Assembly: GCF_001578805.1 (NCBI RefSeq)
Contig: NZ_KQ969157.1
Span: forward strand, 151,377-193,705
Length of the DNA stretch: 42,329 nucleotides
DNA from: Streptococcus sp. DD10
GTDB lineage: Bacteria; Bacillota; Bacilli; Lactobacillales; Streptococcaceae
Direction: 5' to 3'
Below are positions 3,738 to 16,169 of this stretch, piece by piece (position 1 is the first letter of the stretch; each line of letters begins with the position of its first letter). A model generated the notes under the pieces. The model did not search any database and was not told the DNA's origin. It saw only the letters and a program-made list of their open reading frames with translations. Position numbers and translations under genes: made by a program.

Positions 3738-4503
3738 TCATACTTGGGTAATTTGCGCTTATGGAGAAAGTGATTATCTTGAAACTTGTATTCAATCTTT
3801 GAAAAATCAAACTCTTCAATCTCAAATTATCTGTTATAGTTCAACGCCACTGGATTCGATTAAGGAACTTTGTCAGCGTTATGCTATCCCATTTTATACG
3901 AAACAAGGTGGGGGGATTGGCAAGGATTGGAATAATGCTATCTCTTTTGTAGAAACAAAATATGCTACGATCGCCCATCAGGATGACTATTATGAGCCAA
4001 GGTATGTAGAAAAAATATTGGCCAAGATGGAAAAAACTAGTGATGTTCTAATCGGATATTCTGATTATTTTGAAGAAAAAAATGGTCTTAAGATTCCTGC
4101 AAATACAAACCTCAAGATTAAAACTTTGATGCTAAAAACAATGAATCTTTTTCCTGGTAGTCATTTTTGGCGCAACCGCGTAATGGCTTTTGGTAATCCA
4201 ATTTGTTGCCCAGCTGTCACCTATAATCTTGAAAAATTGAAGAATTTCTATTTTGATGAGGGAATGAAGGTTAGCCTTGATTGGTATGCTTGGTATAAGA
4301 TTAGTGAATACAAGGGACGTTTTGTCTATGTGTCAGATAAGCTAATGTGTCACCGAATTCATGAGGAATCTGAGACATCTAAGACTATAGCGGATAATAC
4401 TCGTAGTAAAGAAGATTTGTATATGTACCAACTCTTTTGGCCAAAATGGATAGCAAATATCCTTATGAAACAATATGTAAAGAGTCAGAAGACAAATAAT
4501 TAA
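3727..4503 (+). CDS. GT2-like glycosyltransferase
   Basis: A 258-aa GT-A protein. The N-terminus (WVICAYGESDYLETCIQSLKNQ) is a divergent GT2 opening, and HQDDYYEPRY (about residues 85-94) carries the DXD-type metal motif. The usual DDGS loop is replaced by a divergent CYSSTPLDS. The family is typical of streptococcal wall-polysaccharide loci; donor and linkage are unknown. Its start lies inside the end of the DUF2304 gene, with GAGGAAAAG as ribosome site. A strong terminator follows, so it is the last gene of the first transcription unit. A side-chain or branch-decorating role alongside the GacI/GacJ-like pair is an inference from context. Confidence 0.75.
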   Translation: MKDNHTWVICAYGESDYLETCIQSLKNQTLQSQIICYSSTPLDSIKELCQRYAIPFYTKQGGGIGKDWNNAISFVETKYATIAHQDDYYEPRYVEKILAKMEKTSDVLIGYSDYFEEKNGLKIPANTNLKIKTLMLKTMNLFPGSHFWRNRVMAFGNPICCPAVTYNLEKLKNFYFDEGMKVSLDWYAWYKISEYKGRFVYVSDKLMCHRIHEESETSKTIADNTRSKEDLYMYQLFWPKWIANILMKQYVKSQKTNN

Positions 4504-4518
4504 TAGCTTTTATAATAG

Positions 4519-4547
4519 GCGGCCCTTGAGGGTCGCTTTTCTGTTTG
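4519..4547 (+). terminator. Rho-independent terminator ending the first unit
   Basis: GCGGCCC (4519-4525), loop TTGA and GGGTCGC (4530-4536) form a 7-bp GC-rich stem with one G-T pair, followed by TTTTCTGTTT. Confidence 0.88.
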
Positions 4548-4550
4548 TAT

Positions 4551-4579
4551 TAGGCAAAAAGCCTAGAAAATGGTATAAT
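4551..4579 (+). promoter_or_regulatory. Promoter of rgpA operon
   Basis: TAGGCA (4551-4556, 4/6 to consensus), a 17-bp spacer and an extended -10 TGGTATAAT (-10 hexamer 4574-4579). It lies just after a terminator and gives a leader of about 30 nt before rgpA. Confidence 0.75.
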
Positions 4580-4613
4580 TGGATAGACTGTGAATGATTT
4601 GAAAGGGAACTCT

Positions 4614-5762
4614 ATGCAAGATGTTTTTATTATCGGAAGTCGTGGACTTCCGGCTCAATATGGCGGTTTTGAGACTTTTGTGGACCAATTGGTCTCGCAT
4701 CAAGTTTCTCCAGATATCCAATACCATGTTGCCTGCCTTTCTAATGATCAAGCCTATTATCATTTTGACTACAAGGGTGTCGCTTGTTATACGATTAAAG
4801 CCCCTAAGCTTGGGCCTGCACGTGTCATCGCCTATGATATGATGGCTATCAACTATGCCTTGAAGTTCATTAAGAAACAAGGAATTGAACAGCCAATTTT
4901 TTATGTACTAGGAAATACAATCGGAGCCTTTGTGGCGCCTTTTGCGCGTAAAATCCATAAATTGGGCGGGCAGTTCTATATCAATCCAGATGGACTGGAG
5001 TGGAAGAGGGCCAAGTGGGCTAAGCCGATCCAAGCCTATCTCAAGTATTCTGAAAAGATCATGACGCGCCATGCTGATCTGGTAATTTCAGACAACCCTG
5101 GTATTGAGTCCTATATCAAGGAAGCCTACCCTTGGTCTAATACGACCTATATTGCCTATGGGACGGACTTGTCTCCGACCAGCTTAAATAGTCAGGATAA
5201 TAAGGTCCGAGAATTCTATCAGAAGTGGCAGACTCAAGAGAAAAACTATTACCTAATTTTGGGCCGCTTTGTCCCAGAAAATAATTATGAGACCGCCGTT
5301 CGTGAATTTATGGCCTCTTCTACCAAGAGGGATTTGGTGATCATTTGTAACCATGAAGGCAATCCTTATTTTGAAGAATTTCGAACTCGAACTGGATTTG
5401 ATCAGGATTCTCGTGTTAAGTTTGTAGGAACGGTCTATGATCAAGACCTCTTGAAGTATATCCGTAAAGAAGCCTTTGCCTATATCCATGGTCATGAAGT
5501 GGGCGGAACCAATCCTGGTCTCCTAGAGGCTCTCGCGCAGACGGATCTGAATTTAGTTTTAGGGGTCTCCTTTAACCAAACGGTCGCTAAGGACACGGCT
5601 CAATATTGGACTAAAGAAACTGGAAATTTGGCGCATTTGATTGACCAGGTCGATCCTTTAGAAGATGTATCTGAATGGGGTCAACGTGCCAAGGCCAATA
5701 TGAAGCAAAACTTTACATGGGAAAAAATTGTAGGTGAGTACGAGGAATTATTCTTATCATGA
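4614..5762 (+). CDS. rgpA: Rhamnosyltransferase RgpA (DUF1972 + GT4)
   Basis: A 382-aa GT-B enzyme. The N-terminal DUF1972 signature IGSRGLPAQYGGFET (about 7-21) is diagnostic of the RgpA/GacB/Cps2T rhamnosyltransferases, and a GT4 domain follows with HGHEVGGTNPGLLEALA near residues 292-308. By family it adds the first rhamnose to the GlcNAc-lipid primer at the cytoplasmic face, using dTDP-rhamnose. The start is ATG 4614 with AAAGGGA 5 nt upstream; the earlier in-frame GTG at 4590 has no ribosome site. Length matches RgpA of other streptococci. The stop overlaps the rgpB start (ATGA). This gene begins the core operon and has clearly higher GC than the genes before 2.6 kb. Confidence 0.92.
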   Translation: MQDVFIIGSRGLPAQYGGFETFVDQLVSHQVSPDIQYHVACLSNDQAYYHFDYKGVACYTIKAPKLGPARVIAYDMMAINYALKFIKKQGIEQPIFYVLGNTIGAFVAPFARKIHKLGGQFYINPDGLEWKRAKWAKPIQAYLKYSEKIMTRHADLVISDNPGIESYIKEAYPWSNTTYIAYGTDLSPTSLNSQDNKVREFYQKWQTQEKNYYLILGRFVPENNYETAVREFMASSTKRDLVIICNHEGNPYFEEFRTRTGFDQDSRVKFVGTVYDQDLLKYIRKEAFAYIHGHEVGGTNPGLLEALAQTDLNLVLGVSFNQTVAKDTAQYWTKETGNLAHLIDQVDPLEDVSEWGQRAKANMKQNFTWEKIVGEYEELFLS

Positions 5763-6700
5763 AAGTAAATATCTTGTTGTCCACCTATAATGGTGAACAG
5801 TATCTAAAAGAGCAGGTCAAAAGTATCCAAGACCAGACTTATCAAGACTGGCAACTCCTGATCCGAGATGATGGATCAAGAGATGGTACGGTGGAGATCA
5901 TTCAAGAGTTGGTTGCCCAAGATGAGCGCATTCGCTTTATCAACCAGGGAGCTATCGAAAATCTCGGTGTCATCAAGAGCTTCCATGCCCTCTTGAAATA
6001 TGAAGAAGCAGATTTTTATTGTTTTAGTGACCAAGATGATGTCTGGTTACCAGATAAGATTGCTCTTCAGGTAGCAGAAGCAGAGAAGCATCCTCAAGAA
6101 GAGCCTTTGCTGGTCTACACAGATTTAAAAGTGGTTGATGAAAACTTGAATGTGCAGCATGAAAGTATGATTCGCACCCAGTCTGATCATGCCAATACAG
6201 AACTGATTCAAGAACTGACGGAAAATACAGTAACTGGTGGGGTAGCCATGATTAACCACGCCCTGGCTGACTTATGGACGGGTCAAGAAAATCATGCACT
6301 CCTTATGCATGATTGGTATTTGGCCTTGTTGGCAACTGCCTTTGGGAGGCTCATCTATATCGAACAGCCAACAGAATTGTACCGTCAGCACAGTAGCAAT
6401 GTTCTGGGGGCTCGTACCCTTAGAAAACGGATCAAAAACTGGGTTCGCCCTCATGTTCTTTTTGCTAAATATTGGAATCTCATTGAGTCTAGTCAAGAAC
6501 AAGCAAAAAATCTATTGGATCTTCCGAACAGTCCCCAAACTAAAGAAATTATTGAAAACTTTGTCACCATTATGGATGTTCCACTAAAAGAACGTCTGAG
6601 ACGTCTTCGTCAGTATGGTTATCGGAAGAACCGTGCTTTTCACACTTTTGTGTTTATCAGCTTGATTCTGACAAAGTTTGCATATCGAGGTAAAAAATAA
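5759..6700 (+). CDS. rgpB: Rhamnosyltransferase RgpB (GT2)
   Basis: A 313-aa GT2 enzyme with NILLSTYNGEQYL (4-16), RDDGSRDGT (36-44) and SDQDDVWLPDK (90-100, DXD). This matches RgpB/GacC, which adds a rhamnose after RgpA. ATGA overlap with rgpA indicates translational coupling. The C-terminal basic segment (KKNRAFHTFVFISLILTKFAYRGKK, about 289-313) includes a hydrophobic stretch that may contact the membrane. The next gene starts on the last base of the stop codon. Confidence 0.9.
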   Translation: MKVNILLSTYNGEQYLKEQVKSIQDQTYQDWQLLIRDDGSRDGTVEIIQELVAQDERIRFINQGAIENLGVIKSFHALLKYEEADFYCFSDQDDVWLPDKIALQVAEAEKHPQEEPLLVYTDLKVVDENLNVQHESMIRTQSDHANTELIQELTENTVTGGVAMINHALADLWTGQENHALLMHDWYLALLATAFGRLIYIEQPTELYRQHSSNVLGARTLRKRIKNWVRPHVLFAKYWNLIESSQEQAKNLLDLPNSPQTKEIIENFVTIMDVPLKERLRRLRQYGYRKNRAFHTFVFISLILTKFAYRGKK

Positions 6701-7506
6701 TGTTTGACGTTTTTAGTCAGAAAAATCTAATTTTATTACGAGAATTAATTAAAACAGACTTTAAATTACGATACCAAGGATCAGCGATTGGTTATCTTTG
6801 GTCGATTTTAAAGCCCTTGATGACCTTTACGATCATGTATATTGTCTTCATCCGATTTTTACGTTTGGGTGGTGATGTGCCCCATTTCCCAGTTGCCCTC
6901 TTGTTGGCCAATGTAATCTGGGGATTCTTTTCAGAAGCCACATCTATGGGGATGGTGTCGATCGTTAGTCGAGGCGACCTATTGCGGAAGTTGAACTTCT
7001 CCAAATATATCATTGTCTTGTCTGCGATTTCAGGAGCAGCCATCAACTTTGTCATTAACCTTGTAGTGGTTTTGATTTTTTCATTCTTTAATGGGGTGAC
7101 ATTCTCTTGGACAGCTTTGATGGTGATTCCGTTGTTCTTTGAGTTATTCTTGATGGCGACAGGATGCGCTTTAATCTTAGCGACATTTTTTGTTCGTTTT
7201 CGCGATCTTGGACAAGTCTGGGAAGTACTCTTGCAAGCAGGCTTGTATGCGACGCCAATTATCTACCCGATTACCTTTATTGCAGACCGCAATCCATGGG
7301 CTGCTAAATTGGTCATGATGAATCCGTTGGCTCAAATTATTCAAGACATGCGTTATTTCTTGATTGATAAGGCCAACACTCCTGTCTGGCTTTTGGTGGA
7401 AAACAAGTTCTTGGTTTTGATTCCTTATGTTTTACCAGTTCTTATTTTTGTCGCTGGCTTTACTTACTTTAATAAGAATGCTAAGAAATTTGCGGAGATT
7501 CTCTAA
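6700..7506 (+). CDS. rgpC: Rhamnan ABC exporter, permease RgpC
   Basis: A 268-aa ABC-2 permease with six predicted membrane segments. The N-terminal amphipathic stretch (LILLRELIKTDFKLRYQGSAIGYLWSILKPL) is the standard signature of Wzm/TagG/RgpC polysaccharide exporters. It pairs with RgpD to move the lipid-linked rhamnan across the membrane. The start shares a base with the rgpB stop (TAATG) and has CGAGGT upstream. It overlaps rgpD by one base, as expected for a permease-ATPase pair. It belongs to the conserved higher-GC core. Confidence 0.93.
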   Translation: MFDVFSQKNLILLRELIKTDFKLRYQGSAIGYLWSILKPLMTFTIMYIVFIRFLRLGGDVPHFPVALLLANVIWGFFSEATSMGMVSIVSRGDLLRKLNFSKYIIVLSAISGAAINFVINLVVVLIFSFFNGVTFSWTALMVIPLFFELFLMATGCALILATFFVRFRDLGQVWEVLLQAGLYATPIIYPITFIADRNPWAAKLVMMNPLAQIIQDMRYFLIDKANTPVWLLVENKFLVLIPYVLPVLIFVAGFTYFNKNAKKFAEIL

Positions 7507-8708
7507 TGACAGATAAACAAATTGCAGTAAAAGTAGACCATGTCAGCAAGTACTTTAAGTTGCCAACAGAAGCAACCAATAGTCTTCGAACTGCCCTGGT
7601 CAATCGCTTCAAAGGCATTAAAGGATACAAAGAACAACATGTTCTTAAGGATATTTCTTTTGAAGTAGAAAAAGGAGACTTTTTCGGGATCCTCGGTCGA
7701 AATGGTTCTGGAAAATCGACTCTCTTGAAAATTATTTCTGAAATCTATGTTCCAGAAAAAGGTACTGTCACTATTGATGGGAAACTGGTGTCCTTTATCG
7801 AGCTTGGAGTAGGCTTTAACCCAGAACTGACAGGCCGAGAAAATGTCTATATGAACGGCGCCATGCTTGGCTTTTCAACAGCTGAAATTGATGCCATGTA
7901 CGATGATATCGTAGACTTTGCCGAGTTACATGAATTTATGAACCAGAAGCTTAAGAATTACTCATCAGGCATGCAGGTTCGTCTAGCCTTTTCGGTTGCG
8001 ATTAAGGCCCAAGGCGATATCTTGATTTTGGATGAGGTCCTTGCAGTAGGAGATGAAGCCTTCCAGCGCAAGTGTAACGATTATTTCCAAGAACGGAAAA
8101 AATCAGGGAAAACTACTATCCTGGTTACCCATGATATGGGAGCTGTCAAGAAATATTGTAACAAGGCCGTTTTGATTGAAAATGGTTTGGTGAAAGCAAT
8201 TGGTGATCCTTTTGACGTTTCTGACCAATATAGTTTTGACAATTTGGAATCGAGTTCCCATCATCATGGAAATGAAGACGAGGGTTTGGTCACAACGGAA
8301 GTTAAAGATTTTACAGCTAGATTGCTTTCTCCTAAGAAAGTAACTCCTGATGATGAGGTGGTGATTGAGTTTTCATTTGATCTATTAGATGATTCTGTGA
8401 ATCCACATATAGCCTTTTCATTTGTTGATATTTCTACTGGGAATGGGCTTTATAATGATAATTCCATGGATATTCCATTATCTGGTGTCGGACCTAAAAA
8501 AATCACCTATAAATGTAAACTACCGTACTTTAATCATGTGAAGTTAAGATTAGTAGCATTTTTAAGAGACGAAAATCAAGAAAACTTAGCAATATTGTCG
8601 ACAACGAACCCTCCAGTCTTTTCAATTGTTCGGGTAGTCGATCGAACAAATCGTTCAGAATTGGATTCTTCGACTGGTTTGTTGATCCGTCAAGGTAAGT
8701 GGGAATAA
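7506..8708 (+). CDS. rgpD: Rhamnan ABC exporter, ATPase RgpD with Wzt-like C-terminal domain
   Basis: A 400-aa Wzt/TagH-type ATPase. Walker A GRNGSGKST (64-72), signature YSSGM (152-156), Walker B DILILDE (171-177) and H-loop His209 are all intact. Residues about 255-400 form an additional beta-rich domain in the position of the Wzt carbohydrate-binding domain, which in known exporters reads the non-reducing end of the glycan. The ATPase part is core-like in composition (27-29 G/C per 60 bases around 8.0 kb). From about 8290 the DNA drops to 18-19 per 60, coincident with the start of the C-terminal domain. This suggests the recognition domain has been exchanged with the downstream GT4 gene (inference). 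Confidence 0.92.
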   Translation: MTDKQIAVKVDHVSKYFKLPTEATNSLRTALVNRFKGIKGYKEQHVLKDISFEVEKGDFFGILGRNGSGKSTLLKIISEIYVPEKGTVTIDGKLVSFIELGVGFNPELTGRENVYMNGAMLGFSTAEIDAMYDDIVDFAELHEFMNQKLKNYSSGMQVRLAFSVAIKAQGDILILDEVLAVGDEAFQRKCNDYFQERKKSGKTTILVTHDMGAVKKYCNKAVLIENGLVKAIGDPFDVSDQYSFDNLESSSHHHGNEDEGLVTTEVKDFTARLLSPKKVTPDDEVVIEFSFDLLDDSVNPHIAFSFVDISTGNGLYNDNSMDIPLSGVGPKKITYKCKLPYFNHVKLRLVAFLRDENQENLAILSTTNPPVFSIVRVVDRTNRSELDSSTGLLIRQGKWE

Positions 8709-8725
8709 TTTCTTTGGTGTAGGCT

Positions 8726-10384
8726 ATGAAAATTTTATTTGTTTCTCCTGTTGGAGCCATGTTTAGTGGAGCAGAAGTATCGATTGTGAACTTAATGAAA
8801 TTGTTGGTTCAGCAAGGTCACGAAGTTTATAACGTGATACCGGATAATTCTCCACACAGTGATAAAGACTACCTCCGTCATATGGATACAGCTGGAATTA
8901 AACTATTTCAGTTAAAAACGAATCAGTGGTGGTGGCCTGAGTCTAAAACGCTAGATATTTCGGATTTAGAAATCCAAACTTCTCAACAAAAGAATATTGA
9001 GGAAGTAAGAAAAATCATTCAGAATGAACAGATTGAACTGGTCATTTCGAATACAGTAAATGTGTTTCAGGGAGCTATGGCAGCTGCATGTGAAAAGGTC
9101 AGACATTTTTATATTATTCATGAATTTCCTTTTGGCGAGTTCGGTTATTATATGGACCTGATTCCCTTAATTGATGATTTGTCTGATAAAATTTTTGTAG
9201 TTGAAGGAGAATTGTACCAGACTCTAACGAATTATTTTACGACTGCCAAATTGATTCCGTTCATCCCTTATACAGAAGTTCAAGAGCGTCCTCTCAAGAA
9301 TTCGACCATTTTTCGCTTTGTATCTATTGGTGGGATTAACGAACGGAAAAATCAGCTTGAGTTGCTTGCAGCCTATAATCACTTAAATCGGAAGGAGATC
9401 GAACTGGTCTTCATCGGAGGATGGGATGAGCAGTACAAAAAGTTGATGGATGACTATATTCAAACTCATCATCTAGATCGTGTGACTTTTGTTGGTTTTC
9501 ACTCGGATCCATGGTCCTTGGTGACAGATAAAGATATCCTCGTCTTGCCTGCTAAATTAGAAACATTTTCTTTAGTATTTGTGGAATCAGTCCTCAATGG
9601 AGTTCCGGCAATCATTTCTGATAATTTAGGTCATTTGTCTTCGAGTAAATTTTTAGAATCTGGGAATTTATATCCACTAGGAGATAGAGATCTGCTAAGT
9701 CAACAAATGGCTACAGTGATTGATCATTTTGACGCCTATAAAGAAAAACAATTACTGGATCAAGAACTCGCTCGAAAGAAATATAATCTTAAGACAATTT
9801 ATGCTGTTTTTAAAGATAACATTGAAGAAGAAACACCTATTGTTAACCAAAAGCTATCCTCTAAGTATGCTCGATTTTTGGGGATGAAATTCAAGAATCG
9901 TGATATCGAAGTCATTGGTAAATCTCAAGTGGTAATTTCAGCTTCTAATGATGGGCTCCATTCAGCCTACCATGAAATAACAAAAGAGAGAATGGAAAAT
10001 AAGGGCTCCATTATCTTTCAGCTTGAAAATGAAAAGAGTCTAAAAATATTACTTTCAGAATTTCCTAGCTCCTATAAAGGATTGTCATTGATAGCATTGG
10101 AGGACCAGAGAGAAATTCCTCTTGTAACTTCAAATGGAATTGATTTTGAGGATGTTTTAGTTTTCTTTAATACTCATCCGCATGTTTTGTTTGATCTTTC
10201 GAATAGTTTAGGTAATCAATTTCAATTCTCCTATGAAAAAGATAGTGACGAAGAATTTAGTAGACACCTATTCAACTTACATGAGAATTATAAAAAATTA
10301 TCTCATGAATACAATTCCATCATCCATTCTCGCCGTTGGACGATTCCAACAAAGATCTTGAAATTCTTAAGAATAAGGAAATAG
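8726..10384 (+). CDS. GT4-type glycosyltransferase with extra C-terminal domain
   Basis: A 552-aa GT-B enzyme. The N-terminus KILFVSPVGAMFSGAEVSIVNL (2-23) is the GT4 acceptor-domain opening. The donor domain has SIGGINERKNQLELLAAY (about 197-214), a VTFVGFHSD turn and ETFSLVFVESVLNGVPAIIS (about 282-301), with the E-x7-E arrangement. Residues about 370-530 form a second, beta-rich region with no motif I recognise, and the tail SRRWTIPTKILKFL resembles the end of other streptococcal transferases. It takes the place held by rgpE in S. mutans but is not that family. It starts 17 nt after rgpD with a weak ribosome site. Lower GC than its neighbours, especially the last third. The transferred sugar is unknown. 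Confidence 0.8.
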   Translation: MKILFVSPVGAMFSGAEVSIVNLMKLLVQQGHEVYNVIPDNSPHSDKDYLRHMDTAGIKLFQLKTNQWWWPESKTLDISDLEIQTSQQKNIEEVRKIIQNEQIELVISNTVNVFQGAMAAACEKVRHFYIIHEFPFGEFGYYMDLIPLIDDLSDKIFVVEGELYQTLTNYFTTAKLIPFIPYTEVQERPLKNSTIFRFVSIGGINERKNQLELLAAYNHLNRKEIELVFIGGWDEQYKKLMDDYIQTHHLDRVTFVGFHSDPWSLVTDKDILVLPAKLETFSLVFVESVLNGVPAIISDNLGHLSSSKFLESGNLYPLGDRDLLSQQMATVIDHFDAYKEKQLLDQELARKKYNLKTIYAVFKDNIEEETPIVNQKLSSKYARFLGMKFKNRDIEVIGKSQVVISASNDGLHSAYHEITKERMENKGSIIFQLENEKSLKILLSEFPSSYKGLSLIALEDQREIPLVTSNGIDFEDVLVFFNTHPHVLFDLSNSLGNQFQFSYEKDSDEEFSRHLFNLHENYKKLSHEYNSIIHSRRWTIPTKILKFLRIRK

Positions 10385-10385
10385 T

Positions 10386-12131
10386 ATGCAACGTTTACTT
10401 TTATATGTCCACTTCAATAAGTTTAATTTTATTAGTGGACATGTACTTTACCAATTAGAAAAAATTCGCCCCTTGTATTCACGGGTGGTCTTTATCTCCA
10501 ATAGCCAACTACCAGAAGATGTGAAGTCTAATTTAGTAGCACAGCATCTGGTGGACGATATTCTAGAGCGTCAAAATAGTGGATTTGACTTTGCGGCTTG
10601 GAGGGATGGAATGAAGACAGTCGGCTTTGACCAACTGGCTCATTTTGATTCGGTCACCCTCATGAATGACACCTGCTTTGGACCACTTTGGGATCTAGAA
10701 CCAATCTATCAGCGGTTTGAAAATGATAGTGAAGTGGATTTCTGGGGAATGACCAATTACCGGAAAGACAAGGATTTTAACGAGCATATTCAGAGTTATT
10801 ATCTTAGTTTTAAAAAACAGGTGCTGACATCAAGTGCCTTCCATGAATTTTGGCAAGGTGTTCAGGACTTCACCAATGTTCAAGATGTGATTGATAACTA
10901 TGAAACCAAGGTCACAACGAATTTCTTGGATGCTAGTTTTCGCTATAAGACGGTCTTTGATACCATCCATGAAGACACCACAGGGATGCTCTATCCAGAC
11001 TTTTCTTACTACAATCCTACAGCGATTCTCAATCATAAGGTTCCTTTCATCAAAGTCAAAACCATTGCAAACAATGAAGGAATTATGCCTTATATTTTCG
11101 ACGAGTTGGAGCGTGTATCGAACTACCCATTAGACTTGATTCTCAACCACATGTCTATGATTGATCGTCCGGACTATCCTTATCTCTTGTCTCGTAAGTA
11201 CTTGAAAAACCAGGAATTAGCTGGAGAGTTCGGTAAAAAAGTTGCGGTTCATCTTCATGTCTTTTATGTGGACCTTTTGGAAGAATTTCTAGATGCTTTT
11301 CAAGCCTTTCATTTCGCTTATGACTTATGGATTACGACAGATGTAGAAGAGAAGAAGCAGGATATTGAGCAAATTCTTTCTAATCGGACACAAGATGCGA
11401 CGATTGTGGTGACTGGAAACATTGGACGGGATGTATTGCCAATGCTGTTCTTAAAAGAGCAACTCTCAAAATACGATTATGTTGGCCACTTCCATACCAA
11501 GAAATCCAAAGAAGCAGATTTCTGGGCAGGTGAATCTTGGCGCAAAGAATTGATTGAGATGCTAGTTAAGCCAGCGGATCAAATCCTTGCCAATATGGAG
11601 GCCAATCCAAAAGTCGGAATCACTATCGCAGATATTCCAACTTTCTTTCGTTACAATCGAATAGTAGTTGCTTGGAATGAGGCTCTTATTTCACCAGAGA
11701 TGAACAAGCTTTGGGAACGGATGGGAGCGACCAAGACGATTGACTTCAAAAATCTGAATACCTTTGTCATGAGTTATGGGACCTTTGTGTGGTTTAAATA
11801 CGATGCTTTGAAACCACTCTTTGATTTGAATTTGATAGCAGCAGATGTTCCAGCAGAACCTCTTCCTCAAAATTCGATGTTGCATGCGATCGAACGTTTG
11901 TTGATCTACATTTCTTGGGAACAAAAATATGACTTTAGGATCTCTCAAAATCCTCATGTCCTGACACCATTTATCGATAATAAGCAATTGAACAATCGTG
12001 AAGATCTTCAACCCCATACCTTTGTAGACTTTAATCAAATTGGGGGGATTAAAGGCGCCTTGAAGTATATCGTGATAGGACCTGCAAGAGCTGTGAAATA
12101 TATAGTGAAAAGAATGATAAAAAGAAAGTAG
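10386..12131 (+). CDS. rgpF: Rhamnan synthesis protein RgpF
   Basis: A 581-aa protein of the RgpF family (Pfam rhamnan synthesis F; GacG in group A). Recognisable parts are the N-terminus RLLLYVHFNKFNFISGHVLYQLE, the RQNSGFDFAAWRDGM segment (about 61-75), and in the second half IVVTGNIGRDVLPMLFL and YVGHFHTKKSKEADFW. It extends the polyrhamnose backbone at the cytoplasmic face. It follows the GT4 gene with a 1-nt gap. GC rises sharply at its start (29 of 60 bases near 10.6 kb against 18 of 60 near 10.15 kb), so it returns to the conserved core composition. Confidence 0.92.
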   Translation: MQRLLLYVHFNKFNFISGHVLYQLEKIRPLYSRVVFISNSQLPEDVKSNLVAQHLVDDILERQNSGFDFAAWRDGMKTVGFDQLAHFDSVTLMNDTCFGPLWDLEPIYQRFENDSEVDFWGMTNYRKDKDFNEHIQSYYLSFKKQVLTSSAFHEFWQGVQDFTNVQDVIDNYETKVTTNFLDASFRYKTVFDTIHEDTTGMLYPDFSYYNPTAILNHKVPFIKVKTIANNEGIMPYIFDELERVSNYPLDLILNHMSMIDRPDYPYLLSRKYLKNQELAGEFGKKVAVHLHVFYVDLLEEFLDAFQAFHFAYDLWITTDVEEKKQDIEQILSNRTQDATIVVTGNIGRDVLPMLFLKEQLSKYDYVGHFHTKKSKEADFWAGESWRKELIEMLVKPADQILANMEANPKVGITIADIPTFFRYNRIVVAWNEALISPEMNKLWERMGATKTIDFKNLNTFVMSYGTFVWFKYDALKPLFDLNLIAADVPAEPLPQNSMLHAIERLLIYISWEQKYDFRISQNPHVLTPFIDNKQLNNREDLQPHTFVDFNQIGGIKGALKYIVIGPARAVKYIVKRMIKRK

Positions 12132-12141
12132 AGTAAATTAT

Positions 12142-13629
12142 ATGGGAGTTATTGATAAGACCAAAATTAGAAATATTTTAATCGCTATTTTTTTAGTATT
12201 ATTTTCAAGGGTGTTTTTGGCTAGTTTATTTCAATTTACTATCAATCTTAAAATCATACTATTAATTATTAGTATTGTGATTTATTTTATTCTTTTTGAT
12301 CCAAAAGACAAAAAGAAATTGCCAATTAATGCTTTTTTTCTGATAATTATTTTCGGTAGTGTAATTTCAGTAGTGAAACCAGTCCAATATGGATTAGATG
12401 AAGAGTCTCATTTACCAAATGTAATTAGTATTTCTGATAGTCCTATTTTTAAATATTCTAATGAAAAATTGGAAGATTATAATTCAGTTTTCAAATATGA
12501 TGCACTAAGAAACCCTAGTAAAAAAGATGAAAATTATTGGTTCAATGTTGAACATAAAAAAAGTAAGATTAAAGGAGTAAAAGTTGGATTTGACAATCCG
12601 GCCTTCATTCCTAGTGCAATTGGATGGAATATTGGTAGATTAATCTCTAAAAAAGTGTATGTTTCTTATTATTTGGGTAGAATTTTCGAAGTAATAGCAT
12701 TTGCTATTCTAGTATTTATTGCATTAAAAATCAGCAAAGTTTATAGAGAAGCGATATATTTATTTGCTACATTTCCTGCAGTATTATACATCATAGCAGG
12801 TTATCATTATGATTATTTATATTTTGGAGCAACACTAATTAGTCTTGCTATATTGACAAATATACTATCTGGTGAAAATAAAATTGATAGAAAATATGCT
12901 TTTGTATTTCAATGTTCTACATTACTATTTTCATTTGCAAAATTTCCGTTTGTATTAATTGGAAGTCTATTTTCAATATTGCCTAATAAGTATTATCAGG
13001 ATAAATCGGTAAGAAAATTTAGTTCAATCTTGTTTGGTTTTAATTTATTAATTTCCTTTACATATGTTGGAATCATTAGATTGTTTGCTTCAGAAAATGC
13101 TTTGTCAGGCAAAGGCCCAGGACTATTATATTTTGTAACACATCCATTACCATTAATTAGAACTTTATTTTTGGCACCATACGGGATTATTCATGATTTT
13201 GTTTCTGAACCATTGAAATATGTTTCAGAATATTCCCCATTTTTGATTGCAGTTTCAACAGTTATTTTCTTTTTTGCAATGTTCGTAATTGTATTAAAAA
13301 ATAAATTTGAAATGCCAACATTTTTTAAATATTTTAGTTTTCTCTTACTTGTAGGAATTGCTTCATTAATAGTAATTGCTATTTCAGGAGATCCAAGGGT
13401 ATACCATAAAGGTGATATTACTGTAGGTGGTGTTCAAGGTCGATATTATTATTATATTCTGATGTTCTTGCCACTCTTTTGTGGTTCATGGTTTAGAAAA
13501 CTATTTGGTTTTATGGAAACAACAATTCAGAATGAAGATTCGAACTTTGAATGTAGCTTGCAGTATATGTTAGTGTATTTAAACATTTTAACAATAAGTA
13601 TTGGTATATATACTCAATTACAGGGATAA
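12142..13629 (+). CDS. DUF2142 polytopic membrane protein, probable GT-C glycosyltransferase
   Basis: A 495-aa protein with ten or more hydrophobic segments. The first large loop carries GLDEESH (84-90), equivalent to the acidic D/E-x-x-H loop motif of DUF2142 and GT-C enzymes. The late motif GGVQGRYYYYILMFLPL (about 427-443) is typical of DUF2142. GT-C enzymes use polyprenyl-phosphate sugars on the outer face of the membrane, so this is the natural candidate to use the donor made by the GacI/GacJ-like pair (inference; GacL does this in group A Streptococcus). The region is strikingly AT-rich (12 of 60 bases G/C near 12.4 kb). It starts 10 nt after rgpF with a weak ribosome site. Confidence 0.78.
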   Translation: MGVIDKTKIRNILIAIFLVLFSRVFLASLFQFTINLKIILLIISIVIYFILFDPKDKKKLPINAFFLIIIFGSVISVVKPVQYGLDEESHLPNVISISDSPIFKYSNEKLEDYNSVFKYDALRNPSKKDENYWFNVEHKKSKIKGVKVGFDNPAFIPSAIGWNIGRLISKKVYVSYYLGRIFEVIAFAILVFIALKISKVYREAIYLFATFPAVLYIIAGYHYDYLYFGATLISLAILTNILSGENKIDRKYAFVFQCSTLLFSFAKFPFVLIGSLFSILPNKYYQDKSVRKFSSILFGFNLLISFTYVGIIRLFASENALSGKGPGLLYFVTHPLPLIRTLFLAPYGIIHDFVSEPLKYVSEYSPFLIAVSTVIFFFAMFVIVLKNKFEMPTFFKYFSFLLLVGIASLIVIAISGDPRVYHKGDITVGGVQGRYYYYILMFLPLFCGSWFRKLFGFMETTIQNEDSNFECSLQYMLVYLNILTISIGIYTQLQG

Positions 13630-13652
13630 AAAATTTTTAGGAAGGATAAAAA

Positions 13653-16169
13653 ATGAAAAGAAAGAGGAAATTAGATTTTAGAGATTTTCTTTTTAAAATT
13701 TATAATAAAATAACAAGAACACAAAAGTATTGTATTGCTCTCTTTCTTTTATTTTTTATAAGCAACACTTTCTTAACACAAAATTTGATTTCTAAAGAAA
13801 TTAAATCGACAGGAACGGTATTATTTCTGGTTAATCAGTGTGGTATTTGGTTTGGAATTTCATTTTTAATTTTAGTTTTACTAATTTCACAATACACTTT
13901 AAAATGGATTTTTTTCCTTAAGATTTTAGTTTCATATGTAATCTATTTAATACTATCTTACTCGGTTGATGTTTCGCTTAATATCAATAATCCTAGTTAT
14001 AAGATTAATCATTTTGAAAAAAATATTTTTTGGCAATTTAATTCTCTATCTTTTGTTTTAACATTGTTAGTGATTTCTTATGTTTTGGGACAGATTAGAA
14101 AATCATATGATAATAAAGCAAACAGAAAAAAATTAGAACCTATTGGGAAATTGTTCGAATATGTCTTTCATTCTAGCGTAGTTTGTTCGTTCATTTTTAC
14201 TGATTCTAAAATTCCTTCTCTATTGTATCGTACAACATGGTATGTATCTGGAAAATTTGAGAAATTAGGAGCGGGAAAGTATTCCTTGAGCCAATTTTGG
14301 ATTTTAGAATTTTATTTGCTATTCTTAAGTATTTTCCTGACTTTAGTTGGCCTGCTTTTTGTTAAAGGACAAGTTGATGTAGTAAAAAATAGGTCTAGTT
14401 TTTCGCTAGCTATATTTACAAGTATTAGTCTTGCAATATTATTTAATGCAGGAATACAATTGGGGCTAGGTCATGGGGAACCTTTGGTTGGATACTCAAT
14501 ATTTCCTGGAGGTGTAATATTTCAGATATTATGTTTATCTTATCTGTTTATTTTTCTATATATAATCTTTAATAGATATTTATTTACGACAATATTGATT
14601 TTATTTGGTGGGGTTCTGTTTATTGTTGCTAATGCTATAAAATTTAGTATGCGTGCGGAACCAATTTTGTCAAGTGATTTGGTCTGGGTGTTTCAACCAT
14701 CTGTTTTATTTAGTTTTGTAGATGTCTCAGTTTTAATGACTGTGAGTATTTCCTTAGTGATTTTTACGTTAATTTATATAATTGGAAGGCGACATATTTA
14801 TCCATGTAGGATTATTCGCTCAACAATCTTAAGATTTGTTTTACTAGGACTTATGCTCTTATTGTCCATTAATGTTTATTCTATTTTTAAAAGAAAAGAT
14901 AACGGTAAAATTATAGATGATGTTCCGATTATTACCTTGCTAAATAATTTCCAAGATACAAAGTGGTTAGGGAATTCTATAAACGCTAGATATAGATCGT
15001 TGTCATATGTATGGTTGAATCAGATAACAAGTGATCCAATAATAGAACCTAAAGGATATAGTGAAGAAAAAATTAAGGAAATCGAGAAGAAATACAATCA
15101 AGTAGCATTAACAATTAATAAAAATAGAAATGAGTTAATTGTTAATCAAACGATTGTTTATGTTTTAAGTGAGAGTTTTGCTGACCCAGCAAGAATAGAG
15201 GGAGTAAATTTATCTAGAAACCCTATACCAAAAATTCAAGAAATTAAGACCAAGGTTACAAGTGGATTAATGCAATCGGATGGTTATGGTGGTGGAACTG
15301 CAAATATGGAGTTTCAAACATTGACGGGGTTACCTTTTTATAATATCAATCCTACAGTTTCTGTATTATACTCAGAGATTGCTCCTAAAATGAGAAGACT
15401 GATTTCAGTCAGTGATTCATTTAATAATAAAGAAGTTATTCATTTCGAATCTCCAATTAATTATTCTAGAAATGTAATTTACAATAGACTGAAATTCAAT
15501 AAATTTATAAGTATTGATGATAAAAAGAATTATGATTTAGGTTATCAAGAAGTGCATATAAGTGATGAATCTACGTATAAGGCAGTGTTGAAAGAGATGG
15601 ATGATAAAAAGAATCAGTTCTTTTCTGTCATTACGATTCAAAATCACTCTCCATTTATAGCAGGAGAACCTTCGGACTTAACAGCGACAGGCAACGGTTT
15701 TTCAGATGATGAAAATACCAAGCTAACGAATTATTCACGTCTTTTAACCTTTACTGACACCGCCACCCAATCCTTCCTGGAAAGTCTTTCTAAAATAGAT
15801 AAGAAGATTACAGTGGTATTCTATGGGGATCACTTGCCAGGACTTTATCCTGAGTCCGCCTTTAAGAATAATCCGGAGAGTCAGTATCAGACAGACTACT
15901 TTATTTGGAGTAATTTTGATGCACCGAAATTGAACTATCCTTTGGTCAATTCAAGTGATTTCTCTGCTATGGTCTTTGAACAGACCAATTCAAAAGTTTC
16001 ACCTTACTATGCCTTGTTGACAGAAGTATTGAAGAAAGCAAGTGTCGATAAAAAGGCCCTAGAAGGAGAAGCACAAGAGATTGCGGACGATTTAAAAATG
16101 GTTGAATATGACTTGATTAGTGGGAAAGGATACCTATCTAAAGGCTTCTTTAAAATTCCAACCACCTAA
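13653..16169 (+). CDS. LtaS/GacH-like polysaccharide glycerol-phosphate transferase
   Basis: An 838-aa protein with about eleven membrane segments (residues ~25-410) and an extracellular sulfatase-fold domain (~495-800). Catalytic elements of the LtaS/GacH type are present: Glu507 in VLSESF, nucleophile Thr549 in GGGTANMEF, His665 in QNHSPF, and Asp726/His727 in YGDHLPG. Architecture and length match GacH/SccH, which transfer sn-glycerol-1-phosphate from phosphatidylglycerol to side-chain sugars. The ribosome site is AGGAAGG. The DNA is very AT-rich until about 15650 (11 of 60 near 15.45 kb), then jumps to 26-27 of 60 for the last ~170 codons, pointing to a recombination junction inside the gene. 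The frame is intact throughout. Confidence 0.88.
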   Translation: MKRKRKLDFRDFLFKIYNKITRTQKYCIALFLLFFISNTFLTQNLISKEIKSTGTVLFLVNQCGIWFGISFLILVLLISQYTLKWIFFLKILVSYVIYLILSYSVDVSLNINNPSYKINHFEKNIFWQFNSLSFVLTLLVISYVLGQIRKSYDNKANRKKLEPIGKLFEYVFHSSVVCSFIFTDSKIPSLLYRTTWYVSGKFEKLGAGKYSLSQFWILEFYLLFLSIFLTLVGLLFVKGQVDVVKNRSSFSLAIFTSISLAILFNAGIQLGLGHGEPLVGYSIFPGGVIFQILCLSYLFIFLYIIFNRYLFTTILILFGGVLFIVANAIKFSMRAEPILSSDLVWVFQPSVLFSFVDVSVLMTVSISLVIFTLIYIIGRRHIYPCRIIRSTILRFVLLGLMLLLSINVYSIFKRKDNGKIIDDVPIITLLNNFQDTKWLGNSINARYRSLSYVWLNQITSDPIIEPKGYSEEKIKEIEKKYNQVALTINKNRNELIVNQTIVYVLSESFADPARIEGVNLSRNPIPKIQEIKTKVTSGLMQSDGYGGGTANMEFQTLTGLPFYNINPTVSVLYSEIAPKMRRLISVSDSFNNKEVIHFESPINYSRNVIYNRLKFNKFISIDDKKNYDLGYQEVHISDESTYKAVLKEMDDKKNQFFSVITIQNHSPFIAGEPSDLTATGNGFSDDENTKLTNYSRLLTFTDTATQSFLESLSKIDKKITVVFYGDHLPGLYPESAFKNNPESQYQTDYFIWSNFDAPKLNYPLVNSSDFSAMVFEQTNSKVSPYYALLTEVLKKASVDKKALEGEAQEIADDLKMVEYDLISGKGYLSKGFFKIPTT

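Follow-up and report, generated by a model that had tools for sequence, protein, structure and literature searches.

The locus and the exchanged block

The window, as the whole 42,329-nt stretch of Streptococcus sp. DD10 (NZ_KQ969157.1) is called here and to which all coordinates refer, carries an rgpA-F rhamnan operon in which, by gene order, a glycosyltransferase (GT) slot gene lies between rgpD and rgpF. Positions 8198-10310 of the window are a two-part exchange block within this operon, made up of the C-terminal domain of the exporter ATPase RgpD (C-domain) and most of the slot gene:

6700..7506, + strand: rgpC, exporter permease (ABC2_membrane); flank of the block, co-varies with rgpF
7506..8198, + strand: rgpD codons 1-231, ATPase domain (ABC_tran); conserved left flank, likely the left site of homologous exchange
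8198..8205, no strand: left border of the exchanged block; in an alignment with nine loci, types II and III depart from type I here
8199..8708, + strand: C-terminal domain of RgpD (codons 232-400), exchangeable; its predicted model has the Wzt cap-reading fold, proposed cap reader
8726-10384, + strand: whole GT slot gene, 552 aa, GT4 by Pfam
8726..9850 (right limit approximate), + strand: catalytic GT4 part of the slot gene (Glycos_transf_1 1.7e-19, residues 187-333); proposed cap writer
9887..10225 (approximate limits), + strand: accessory segment following the catalytic part; long GT2 slot enzymes have one too, the likeness being judged by eye
10290..10310, no strand: right border of the exchanged block, where local alignments resume
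10310..10384, + strand: common GT tail, genus consensus SVIHSRRWTIPTKIINFFRRK; remains with the local flank during swaps
10386..12131, + strand: rgpF, rhamnan polymerase, right flank (Pfam RgpF 5.1e-172)

Three versions of the block (types I, II and III) are found between similar flanks, and unlike the GT4 enzyme of the window, the slot enzymes of types II and III are GT2, as is the majority. Set against ten close relatives that carry other versions (nine of type II, one of type III), the window has a mean DNA identity of 93% as far as rgpD codon ~231 (~8200; the range over the ATPase half is 89.5-97.4), of 51% in the remaining rgpD and 35% in the GT gene, and again of 90% in rgpF. Between the types, the C-domains share 33-37% of their amino acids and the ATPase halves 95-98%, and RgpF is 89-96% identical across types I-III of the parasanguinis group. 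An identity drop inside rgpD at the end of the ATPase and a recovery at the rgpF border had both been predicted from the window alone, and both are found, though the block is placed somewhat differently: its left edge had been expected at ~8290 (codon ~260) and lies at 8198-8205 (codons 231-234), and its right edge is not the rgpF start but ~10,290-10,310, as the last ~24 GT codons are common. The alignment resumes at 10290 for type III, at 10309 for seven of the nine close type II loci and at 10327 for the other two.

Repeated exchange and co-variation

The block has been exchanged repeatedly between lineages. The sister genomes G203 (type I) and G100 (type II) are 98.7% identical at rpoB+gyrB and carry different versions, and on the rpoB+gyrB tree of 21 genomes there are six changes between types I and II, with the types clustered no better than shuffled labels. 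The same swap is seen in four more lineages outside the parasanguinis-type group (L022/L081, L027/L057, L061/L199, and L176 versus L171/L175/L183), with flanking proteins 80-97% identical. The original prediction that the RgpD C-domain and the adjoining GT are swapped as one cassette is thus borne out by the identity profile, by the sister genomes and by the joint change of both parts.

This joint change is strict where the surroundings are conserved: of the 205 locus pairs whose flanks are at least 85% identical, C-domain and transferase both match in 95 and both differ in 110, with no mixed pair. This zero is valid only for pairs with conserved flanks, and among them, as anticipated, the two sets of types do not assort independently. 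For 103 loci, a single switch between GT4 and GT2 is needed on the C-domain tree, as against 12-21 on trees built from the ATPase half, rgpB, rgpC or rgpF. Over 99 loci, pairwise identities of C-domain and GT catalytic part are rank-correlated at 0.79, those of the C-domain and its own ATPase half at 0.14. With five flanking proteins or segments controlled for, the partial correlation of C-domain and catalytic part is 0.80 (74 loci); it is 0.76 when the parasanguinis-type group is left out (54 loci). By enzyme class, the partial correlation of the C-domain with the catalytic part is 0.43 for long GT2, 0.54 for GT4 and 0.77 for short GT2, and with the rest of the GT it is 0.25, 0.19 and -0.13, respectively. 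The GT4-linked C-domains form one clade (SH-aLRT 99, tree of 75 loci). Slot proteins were clustered on their catalytic parts; an earlier clustering had lumped GT4 and GT2 through shared parts.

With all classes included (150 loci), the C-domain tree needs eight label changes where the minimum is five, and GT4 needs two. In the loci L045 and L057, the C-domains resemble type II at 65-69% identity, with catalytic domains just 19-26% alike. At fixed cut-offs, 49 of the 2701 pairs from 74 loci combine a C-domain identity of at least 60% with a GT identity below 50%, and 662 show the opposite; these discordant pairs are taken as mainly reflecting unequal divergence rates. A second co-varying pair in the operon are rgpC and rgpF, which are separated by other segments and have a partial rank correlation of 0.60, while the intervening ATPase half shows little correlation with either (0.11 and 0.09). 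No useful groups came out when rgpC and rgpF were clustered by threshold.

Slot enzymes of the genus and the fold of the RgpD C-domain

In the genus sample of 150 loci, 77 slot enzymes are GT2 and 26 are GT4. The conserved tail is cationic and contains tryptophan (net charge +5 in the window), and its motif is found in 77 of 80 GT2 and 26 of 26 GT4 slot proteins. Tail identity modestly tracks that of the flanking rgpF, rgpB and ATPase half (0.32-0.38) and does not track the catalytic domain (0.09). As for a membrane-associated amphipathic helix at the C-terminus, the hydrophobic moment of the window's tail is no higher than that of shuffled sequences (1290 of 2000 as high). For the accessory segment, a local BLAST match of 32-34% between the window GT and 449-aa GT2 proteins extends over 114 aa and may include part of the common tail. 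In a crude test for a coiled coil in the region before the tail, the heptad contrast is rarely reached by shuffles in six proteins (4-24 of 300; L032, L054, L081, L010, L013 and L017) and often in the window GT (145 of 300), L036 (202 of 300) and L064 (66 of 300).

At loci in which rgpF was not detected, the slot is occupied by a protein of the LicD family, by one of the pyruvyltransferase family or by a third kind that is weakly GT-like, and the former two could add a chain cap. In 35 of the 150 loci the RgpD C-domain is present and rgpF directly follows rgpD, with no slot enzyme. In half of the first batch of such loci (7 of 14), a GT4 relative (47-50%) that lacks the tail motif lies elsewhere, starting 5.4-5.5 kb before the rgpD end or 4.2 kb after it; the other 21 no-slot regions start just 3.5 kb upstream, so that a displaced GT4 gene would be missed there. 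At loci with the displaced relative, the C-domain is nearest to GT2-linked C-domains, which would break a pairing of writer and reader if that GT4 were the capping enzyme. One universal pairing rule is not supported, given the 35 loci without slot enzyme, the seven with a displaced GT4 relative, and L045/L057. In an order-level search, matches were found in 23 of 198 genomes, three of them outside the genus.

The ATPase part of RgpD, and only this part, matches Aquifex aeolicus Wzt chains in phmmer searches (8dku_A, 5.3e-59; 7k2t_A, 1.4e-58). The C-domain was modelled alone (AlphaFold pLDDT 75.7); in a full-length model the ATPase part came out poorly (mean pLDDT 61.4). The best PDB matches of the C-domain model are the Wzt carbohydrate-binding domains 6o14, 8dky and 5hno, and 2r5o, of E. 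coli origin, also matches; one of the best-matching Wzt domains is bound to its own cap sugar. Foldseek ranks 1-5 are all Wzt domains or chains (E 6.6e-6 to 4.3e-5), followed by an unrelated chain at 5.7e-5, and VIA gave a Z of 12.7 over 122 residues (rmsd 2.7-2.8), with 11.7 for the first unrelated entry, a dextranase. Judged by its predicted model, the C-domain is therefore a C-terminal jelly-roll of the Wzt type, in agreement with the Wzt-like domain that had been proposed for this part of RgpD. A search of the window's genome for the Pfam family PF14524 (Wzt_C) finds nothing at E <= 0.001, and the isolated C-domain has no Pfam match at E <= 1.

Proposed writing and reading of a chain end

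The co-inheritance of the slot enzyme with the recognition domain of the exporter is genetic evidence that both act on the same chain feature. Their joint swap suggests that the enzyme makes the chain end and the exporter tail recognises it, and that both must change together. This probably reflects a slot enzyme that caps the rhamnan chain and an RgpD C-domain that reads this cap, on the pattern of capped O-antigen export; the exchange is shown, and a capping activity, a cap chemistry, a cap reading and a selection for matching writers and readers are what we infer. The gene between rgpD and rgpF would add a cap to the rhamnan chain end, the C-domain would recognise it, and RgpCD would export finished chains only. 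An incoming enzyme with another donor would then produce chains unrecognisable to the resident exporter, and because such chains would escape recognition, enzyme and reader would be inherited together, by homologous exchange that uses the conserved rgpD ATPase half as its left arm and the conserved GT tail with rgpF as its right arm.

It is rather unlikely that a mechanical co-transfer accounts for the pairing, in which a diverged interior offers no homology for crossovers and no functional match is needed. The two segments are adjacent, and with 51% (C-domain) and 35% (GT) identity between conserved flanks, crossovers are confined to the flanks; as they depend on conserved sequence at both ends, in the ATPase segment and in the GT tail, the co-transfer could indeed be partly mechanical. 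However, GT4 and GT2 are different families, and still there is but one class change on the C-domain tree. Replacement of the GT alone seems possible, as L045 and L057 look like a case, but it is rare, and the co-variation of the non-adjacent rgpC and rgpF indicates that matched pairs exist in this operon without adjacency.

The slot enzyme is cast differently in the cited literature, as a side-chain enzyme in S. mutans, a backbone enzyme in S. pyogenes and a capping enzyme in Lactococcus. It might decorate or build the rhamnan inside the cell and the C-domain recognise the decorated polymer instead of its terminus, which we regard as improbable. S. mutans rgpE mutants are reported to lose their glucose side chains (PMC8327497), and S. 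pyogenes GacF is listed with the backbone rhamnosyltransferases (PMC8807736) and presumed to act in elongation (PMC6802508). The models in PMC8807736 and in the figure legend of PMC8327497, however, place side-chain addition after export, and the L. lactis rhamnan lacks a terminal rhamnose, a terminal GlcNAc or Glc having been suggested to finish the chain and to coordinate its export (PMC5596347). The LicD and pyruvyltransferase families in this slot are also more in keeping with a modified terminus than with a backbone sugar.

Tight co-variation would also result if the C-domain contacted the slot enzyme itself and both co-evolved whatever the glycan. Such a docking is very unlikely, as the modelled fold of the C-domain is that of sugar-binding Wzt domains, and the C-domain co-varies more with the catalytic part than with the accessory segment and tail, although docking may take place on the catalytic part.

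The proposed writing and reading of a cap has several close parallels. Caps are read by Wzt domains (PMC9445017), and the terminated O-polysaccharide systems covered in PMC11231755 are all described with such a domain on the exporter. RgpD shares the ATPase homology and, according to the model, the C-terminal fold with the Wzm/Wzt exporters (Aquifex aeolicus; the O12 Kdo-cap reader), and the exporter gene likewise adjoins a candidate terminator gene. They differ in that the substrate there is O antigen and here a Gram-positive rhamnan with a putative cap, that RgpD has no Pfam Wzt_C match, and that here the candidate writer and reader travel together, as a single small block between flanks that are otherwise conserved. 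WbdD-type terminators have a coiled-coil ruler and a membrane-proximal C-terminus (PMC11231755), and like the slot gene they combine a catalytic domain, a spacer and a conserved C-terminal segment with a polymerase gene next to them; in both cases several unrelated catalytic families occupy one position, here GT4, GT2, LicD and pyruvyltransferase. One Klebsiella terminator has an extra sugar-binding-like domain before the coil (PMC11231755), to which the accessory segment may correspond. Unlike in the WbdD type, no kinase or methyltransferase was found in the slot, and the heptad signal is present in six of the nine proteins tested, not in the window GT.

In the same slot of the rhamnan operon, RgpE of Lactococcus and Streptococcus thermophilus has been hypothesised to be a capping enzyme (PMC10821137, PMC9746298), and S. 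thermophilus strains with an rgpE homologue elsewhere (PMC9746298) resemble the loci without slot enzyme. The window enzyme is a GT4, most slot enzymes of the genus being GT2, and the RgpE proposals, in the parts drawn on here, make no tie to the RgpD C-domain; nor do the cited parts of the rhamnan literature state a mechanism by which RgpCD recognises finished rhamnan.

In the pneumococcal cps locus, serotypes switch by exchange of polysaccharide genes; by contrast, one border of the block lies inside an exporter gene, at the joint of ATPase and recognition domain. In the S. mutans c/e/f serotype region after rgpF, variable glycan genes are likewise replaced between conserved flanks, with rgpA-F reported to be conserved between serotypes (PMC8327497), which speaks against the reading proposed here; the S. 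mutans genes have also been reported to be expressed in E. coli (PMC4931226). It may tentatively be imagined that rhamnan export is gated by caps throughout Streptococcus, with nested matched pairs that are reshuffled independently (slot enzyme/RgpD C-domain inside RgpF/RgpC as polymerase/channel) and chemically diverse caps (sugars, a LicD-type phosphate group, pyruvate) plugged in by one-block exchange, so that strains with the same backbone would differ in unnoticed chain ends. If so, strains might differ at the chain end in a hidden antigen or a phage receptor, which would matter for rhamnan typing and for work on rhamnan-based vaccines.

There is practically no chance that no cassette exists and that GC fluctuation or uniformly fast divergence of C-domain and GT simulates one. 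The G+C signal is modest by itself and the block lies below both flanks in only 51 of 105 other loci, but the identity profile, with its steps from 93% to 51% and from 35% to 90%, the 92% that seven type I genomes average over the block, and the repeated exchange rule both out. It is the sequence comparison that is decisive, and G+C was dropped as a general marker of the block. In the window, the G/C counts given earlier are exact (29, 19, 18, 18 and 29 of 60 at lines 7981, 8401, 8521, 10141 and 10621), single 60-base lines being noisy (mean 23.5, SD 3.8 over rgpA-rgpF). Inside the block the mean is 21.2 and outside it 24.5 per 60 bases (35 versus 90 lines; Mann-Whitney p = 3e-6), and equally low G+C occurs in 4.4% of all segments of 2.1 kb along rgpA-rgpF. 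Third-position GC falls from 39.8% in the ATPase half of rgpD to 27.2% in the C-domain, is 32.6% and 27.0% in the GT gene, and reaches 50% in its last 24 codons and 41.1% in rgpF.

Exchange of a block within the rhamnan locus

The operon in the window is a streptococcal rhamnan operon, in which rgpA to rgpD are named from gene order and family, and rgpF from Pfam:

4590-5762: rgpA-type gene
5759-6700: rgpB
6700-7506: rgpC
7506-8708: rgpD (ATPase half, codons 1-231; C-domain, codons 232-400)
8726-10384: GT4-family glycosyltransferase gene, 552 aa, in the slot between rgpD and rgpF
10386-12131: rgpF
3' of rgpF: DUF2142 gene, then sulfatase-family gene

Searching 247 genus genomes for rgpD gave a match at E <= 1e-60 in 149, the window's genome counted; regions were fetched for the first 100 of the other 148 and then for the remaining 48, and seven further loci, found by searching 198 genomes of the order, brought the set to 155. 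Among these, L173, L196 and L209 had no slot gene found and three others came from outside the genus. The 150 genus loci (window counted) were classed by the gene after rgpD, with family labels from scans of single representatives, as GT2 (77), GT4 (26), rgpF directly after rgpD (35), a third kind with a sub-threshold glycosyltransferase match (6), pyruvyltransferase-family (4) and LicD-family (2).

The window was compared with twenty relatives in base-level alignments. Seven have the same block of C-domain and slot enzyme (type I), with a mean identity of 92-93% in every segment, nine close loci are of type II (RgpD 407 aa, GT2 449 aa) and one is of type III (GT2 336 aa); two more type II loci, one from a strain named S. 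gordonii, stand in remoter backgrounds (flank identity 80% and 68%), and the last, L068, differs from rgpC onward. The ten close type II and III loci match the window at a mean of 93% (90.7-95.2) between rgpB and rgpD codon 231, at 51% (47.4-52.4) across the C-domain and at 35% (30.4-36.3, a forced alignment) across the glycosyltransferase; the last 24 codons of that gene stand at 88% (79.7-95.9) and rgpF at 90% (82.9-93.6), so that identity falls inside rgpD and recovers in rgpF, as the original prediction of an exchangeable cassette had expected. At base level, divergence begins at 8198-8205 and ends at about 10,290-10,310; local alignments with the nine close type II loci stop on the left at 8243 in six and at 8533-8556 in three, and restart on the right at 10,309 in seven and at 10,327 in two.

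Among strains named as S. parasanguinis, 886_SPAR has type I, SK148 type II and 6.1 type III, and others have a fourth arrangement that differs from rgpC onward. The latter, found in S. parasanguinis-type genomes (L068, L117-L123), keeps rgpA and rgpB at 91-96% identity and has a short RgpF-like protein (286-289 aa) after rgpD in six of its eight loci. A tree of 21 genomes built from rpoB+gyrB requires 6 changes between types I and II, and 8 when the four types are taken together, against a shuffled mean of 8.4; G203 (type I) and G100 (type II) are sisters, 98.7% identical in these genes. Four further lineages outside this group show the same swap between conserved flanks, and it is practically certain that the block exchange itself is real.

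The prediction had started from a fall in G+C, and its base counts proved exact on recount: from the end of the ATPase half to near the end of the glycosyltransferase gene the block has a lower G+C content, and third codon positions show this best (27-33%, versus 40-41% in the ATPase half and rgpF). Taken alone the signal is modest, the block lying below both flanks in 51 of 105 other loci, and low G+C was rejected as a general marker of the block.

Co-variation across the locus

Over the 103 loci whose slot enzyme is a GT2 or a GT4, the label of enzyme class (GT4/GT2) changes once on the C-domain tree versus 12 times on the ATPase-half tree of the same gene, 17 times on that of rgpF and 21 times each on those of rgpC and rgpB (the latter with 99 rows), shuffled labels giving about 23. 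When every class is included (150 loci), 8 changes are required on the C-domain tree (5 at the least; 65.5 with shuffled labels), compared with 23 on that of the ATPase half, 33 on that of rgpC and 50 on that of rgpB (146 rows). Pairwise identities of the C-domain correlate at 0.79 with those of the catalytic part of the enzyme and at 0.14 with those of the ATPase half (99 loci). Conditioned on rgpA, rgpB, rgpC, ATPase half and rgpF, the correlation of C-domain and catalytic part is 0.80 (p = 0.003; first 74 loci, 299 permutations); the corresponding value is 0.76 without the parasanguinis-type group, and by class 0.69 within GT4 and 0.35 within GT2 (p = 0.001 each, 999 permutations).

The predicted co-variation was also borne out in 205 pairs with conserved flanks (rgpB, rgpC and rgpF each at least 85% identical): both segments are at least 70% alike in 95, both below 60% in 110 and none is mixed, the pairs being interdependent, as one species group supplies 20 of the 30 loci that take part in swapped pairs (flanks at least 80%). 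Such co-inheritance is expected from a writer-reader pair, in which the slot enzyme would write a chain-end cap that the C-domain would read for export. Recombination could also have moved the two segments together without any functional match, and because unlike blocks give no homology inside for a crossover, this accounts for much of the zero count of mixed pairs; as the whole explanation it is rather improbable.

Also rgpC and rgpF co-vary across the block (partial correlation 0.60, p = 0.002; again 0.60 when the parasanguinis-type group and three divergent rgpF are left out; plain correlation 0.47 in the larger set). The ATPase half, which lies between them, barely tracks either (0.11 and 0.09), suggesting that a match between channel and polymerase surrounds the one between reader and writer.

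Proposed writing and reading of a chain-end cap

In capped O-antigen export, as described in PMC9445017 and PMC11231755, a terminator puts on the cap and the Wzt domain lets capped chains alone through. Because the rhamnan of L. lactis lacks terminal rhamnose, the authors of PMC5596347 suggested that a terminal GlcNAc or Glc closes the chain and coordinates its export; RgpE was afterwards put forward as the enzyme for the terminal residue (PMC10821137, PMC9746298). The single elements are already known from Gram-negative systems; a literature search, which left most subscription journals uncovered and is therefore weak evidence, found no description of an RgpD C-domain exchanged with its adjoining enzyme.

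Pfam gave no match for the C-domain. A model of it by itself, from 17 sequences (pLDDT 75.7), has as top PDB matches the Wzt carbohydrate-binding domains of A. aeolicus, free and with bound cap sugar, and of the O12 Kdo-cap reader, with 2r5o lower. The predicted Wzt-type fold is well supported, but as sequence identity is 12-18% and other beta-sandwich proteins are close behind (Foldseek rank 6; Z 11.7 versus 12.7), the fold is no proof of cap reading. The C-domain tracks the catalytic part of the enzyme above the rest of it, and this speaks more for recognition of the product than for docking on the tail or the accessory segment.

Against a cap stand reports, in PMC8327497, that S. mutans rgpE mutants lack glucose side chains and that rgpA-F of this species is conserved across serotypes, the listing of GacF as a rhamnosyltransferase (PMC8807736), and the presence of the C-domain without slot enzyme in 35 of 150 loci. 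In seven of 14 such loci (first batch; the other 21 regions do not extend far enough upstream to show one) a GT4 relative without the tail motif lies elsewhere in the region and the C-domain is GT2-like. In L045 and L057 a different GT2 stands beside a C-domain that is still type-II-like. Given these points and the possible mechanical co-transfer, the writer-reader mechanism appears somewhat favoured, with considerable reserve. In L009 (G192), the rgpD reading frame encodes 435 aa and ends in a part similar to the accessory segment found in long GT2 slot enzymes, and the slot catalytic domain is absent before rgpF, which looks like an in-frame deletion joining the reader and writer genes.

Enzyme tail and surroundings of the locus

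A cationic tail motif is conserved in all 26 GT4 and all 77 genus GT2 slot proteins and absent from the three GT2 slot proteins from outside the genus. The tail tracks the flanks modestly and does not track the catalytic part; kept with the flank, it may tether the enzyme to the membrane or to RgpF. For the window's enzyme the analysis established no coiled coil and no amphipathic helix. In L010-L015, where no rgpF was found, LicD-family (L010, L011) and pyruvyltransferase-family (L012-L015) slot proteins end in a W-containing basic tail, preceded by a heptad signal in both loci tested (L010, L013).

From rgpA to rgpF (about 4455-12136), the window's DNA matches type I loci of the S. parasanguinis group at 92-93% identity. 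In rpoB+gyrB, the identity of its genome to the 20 others in the comparison does not exceed 83.1%, and the best-scoring rpoB matches in 246 further genomes of the genus are at 84%, so that a deep lineage seems to have acquired the rhamnan locus horizontally. A second variable stretch lies right of rgpF (12142-16169): the DUF2142 gene (27% GC) is found at 93-94% identity in the close relatives L003, L034 and L036 and was not found in L001, L002, L004 and L005, and the forms of the sulfatase-family gene share about 54%, 70% and 95% identity with that of the window.
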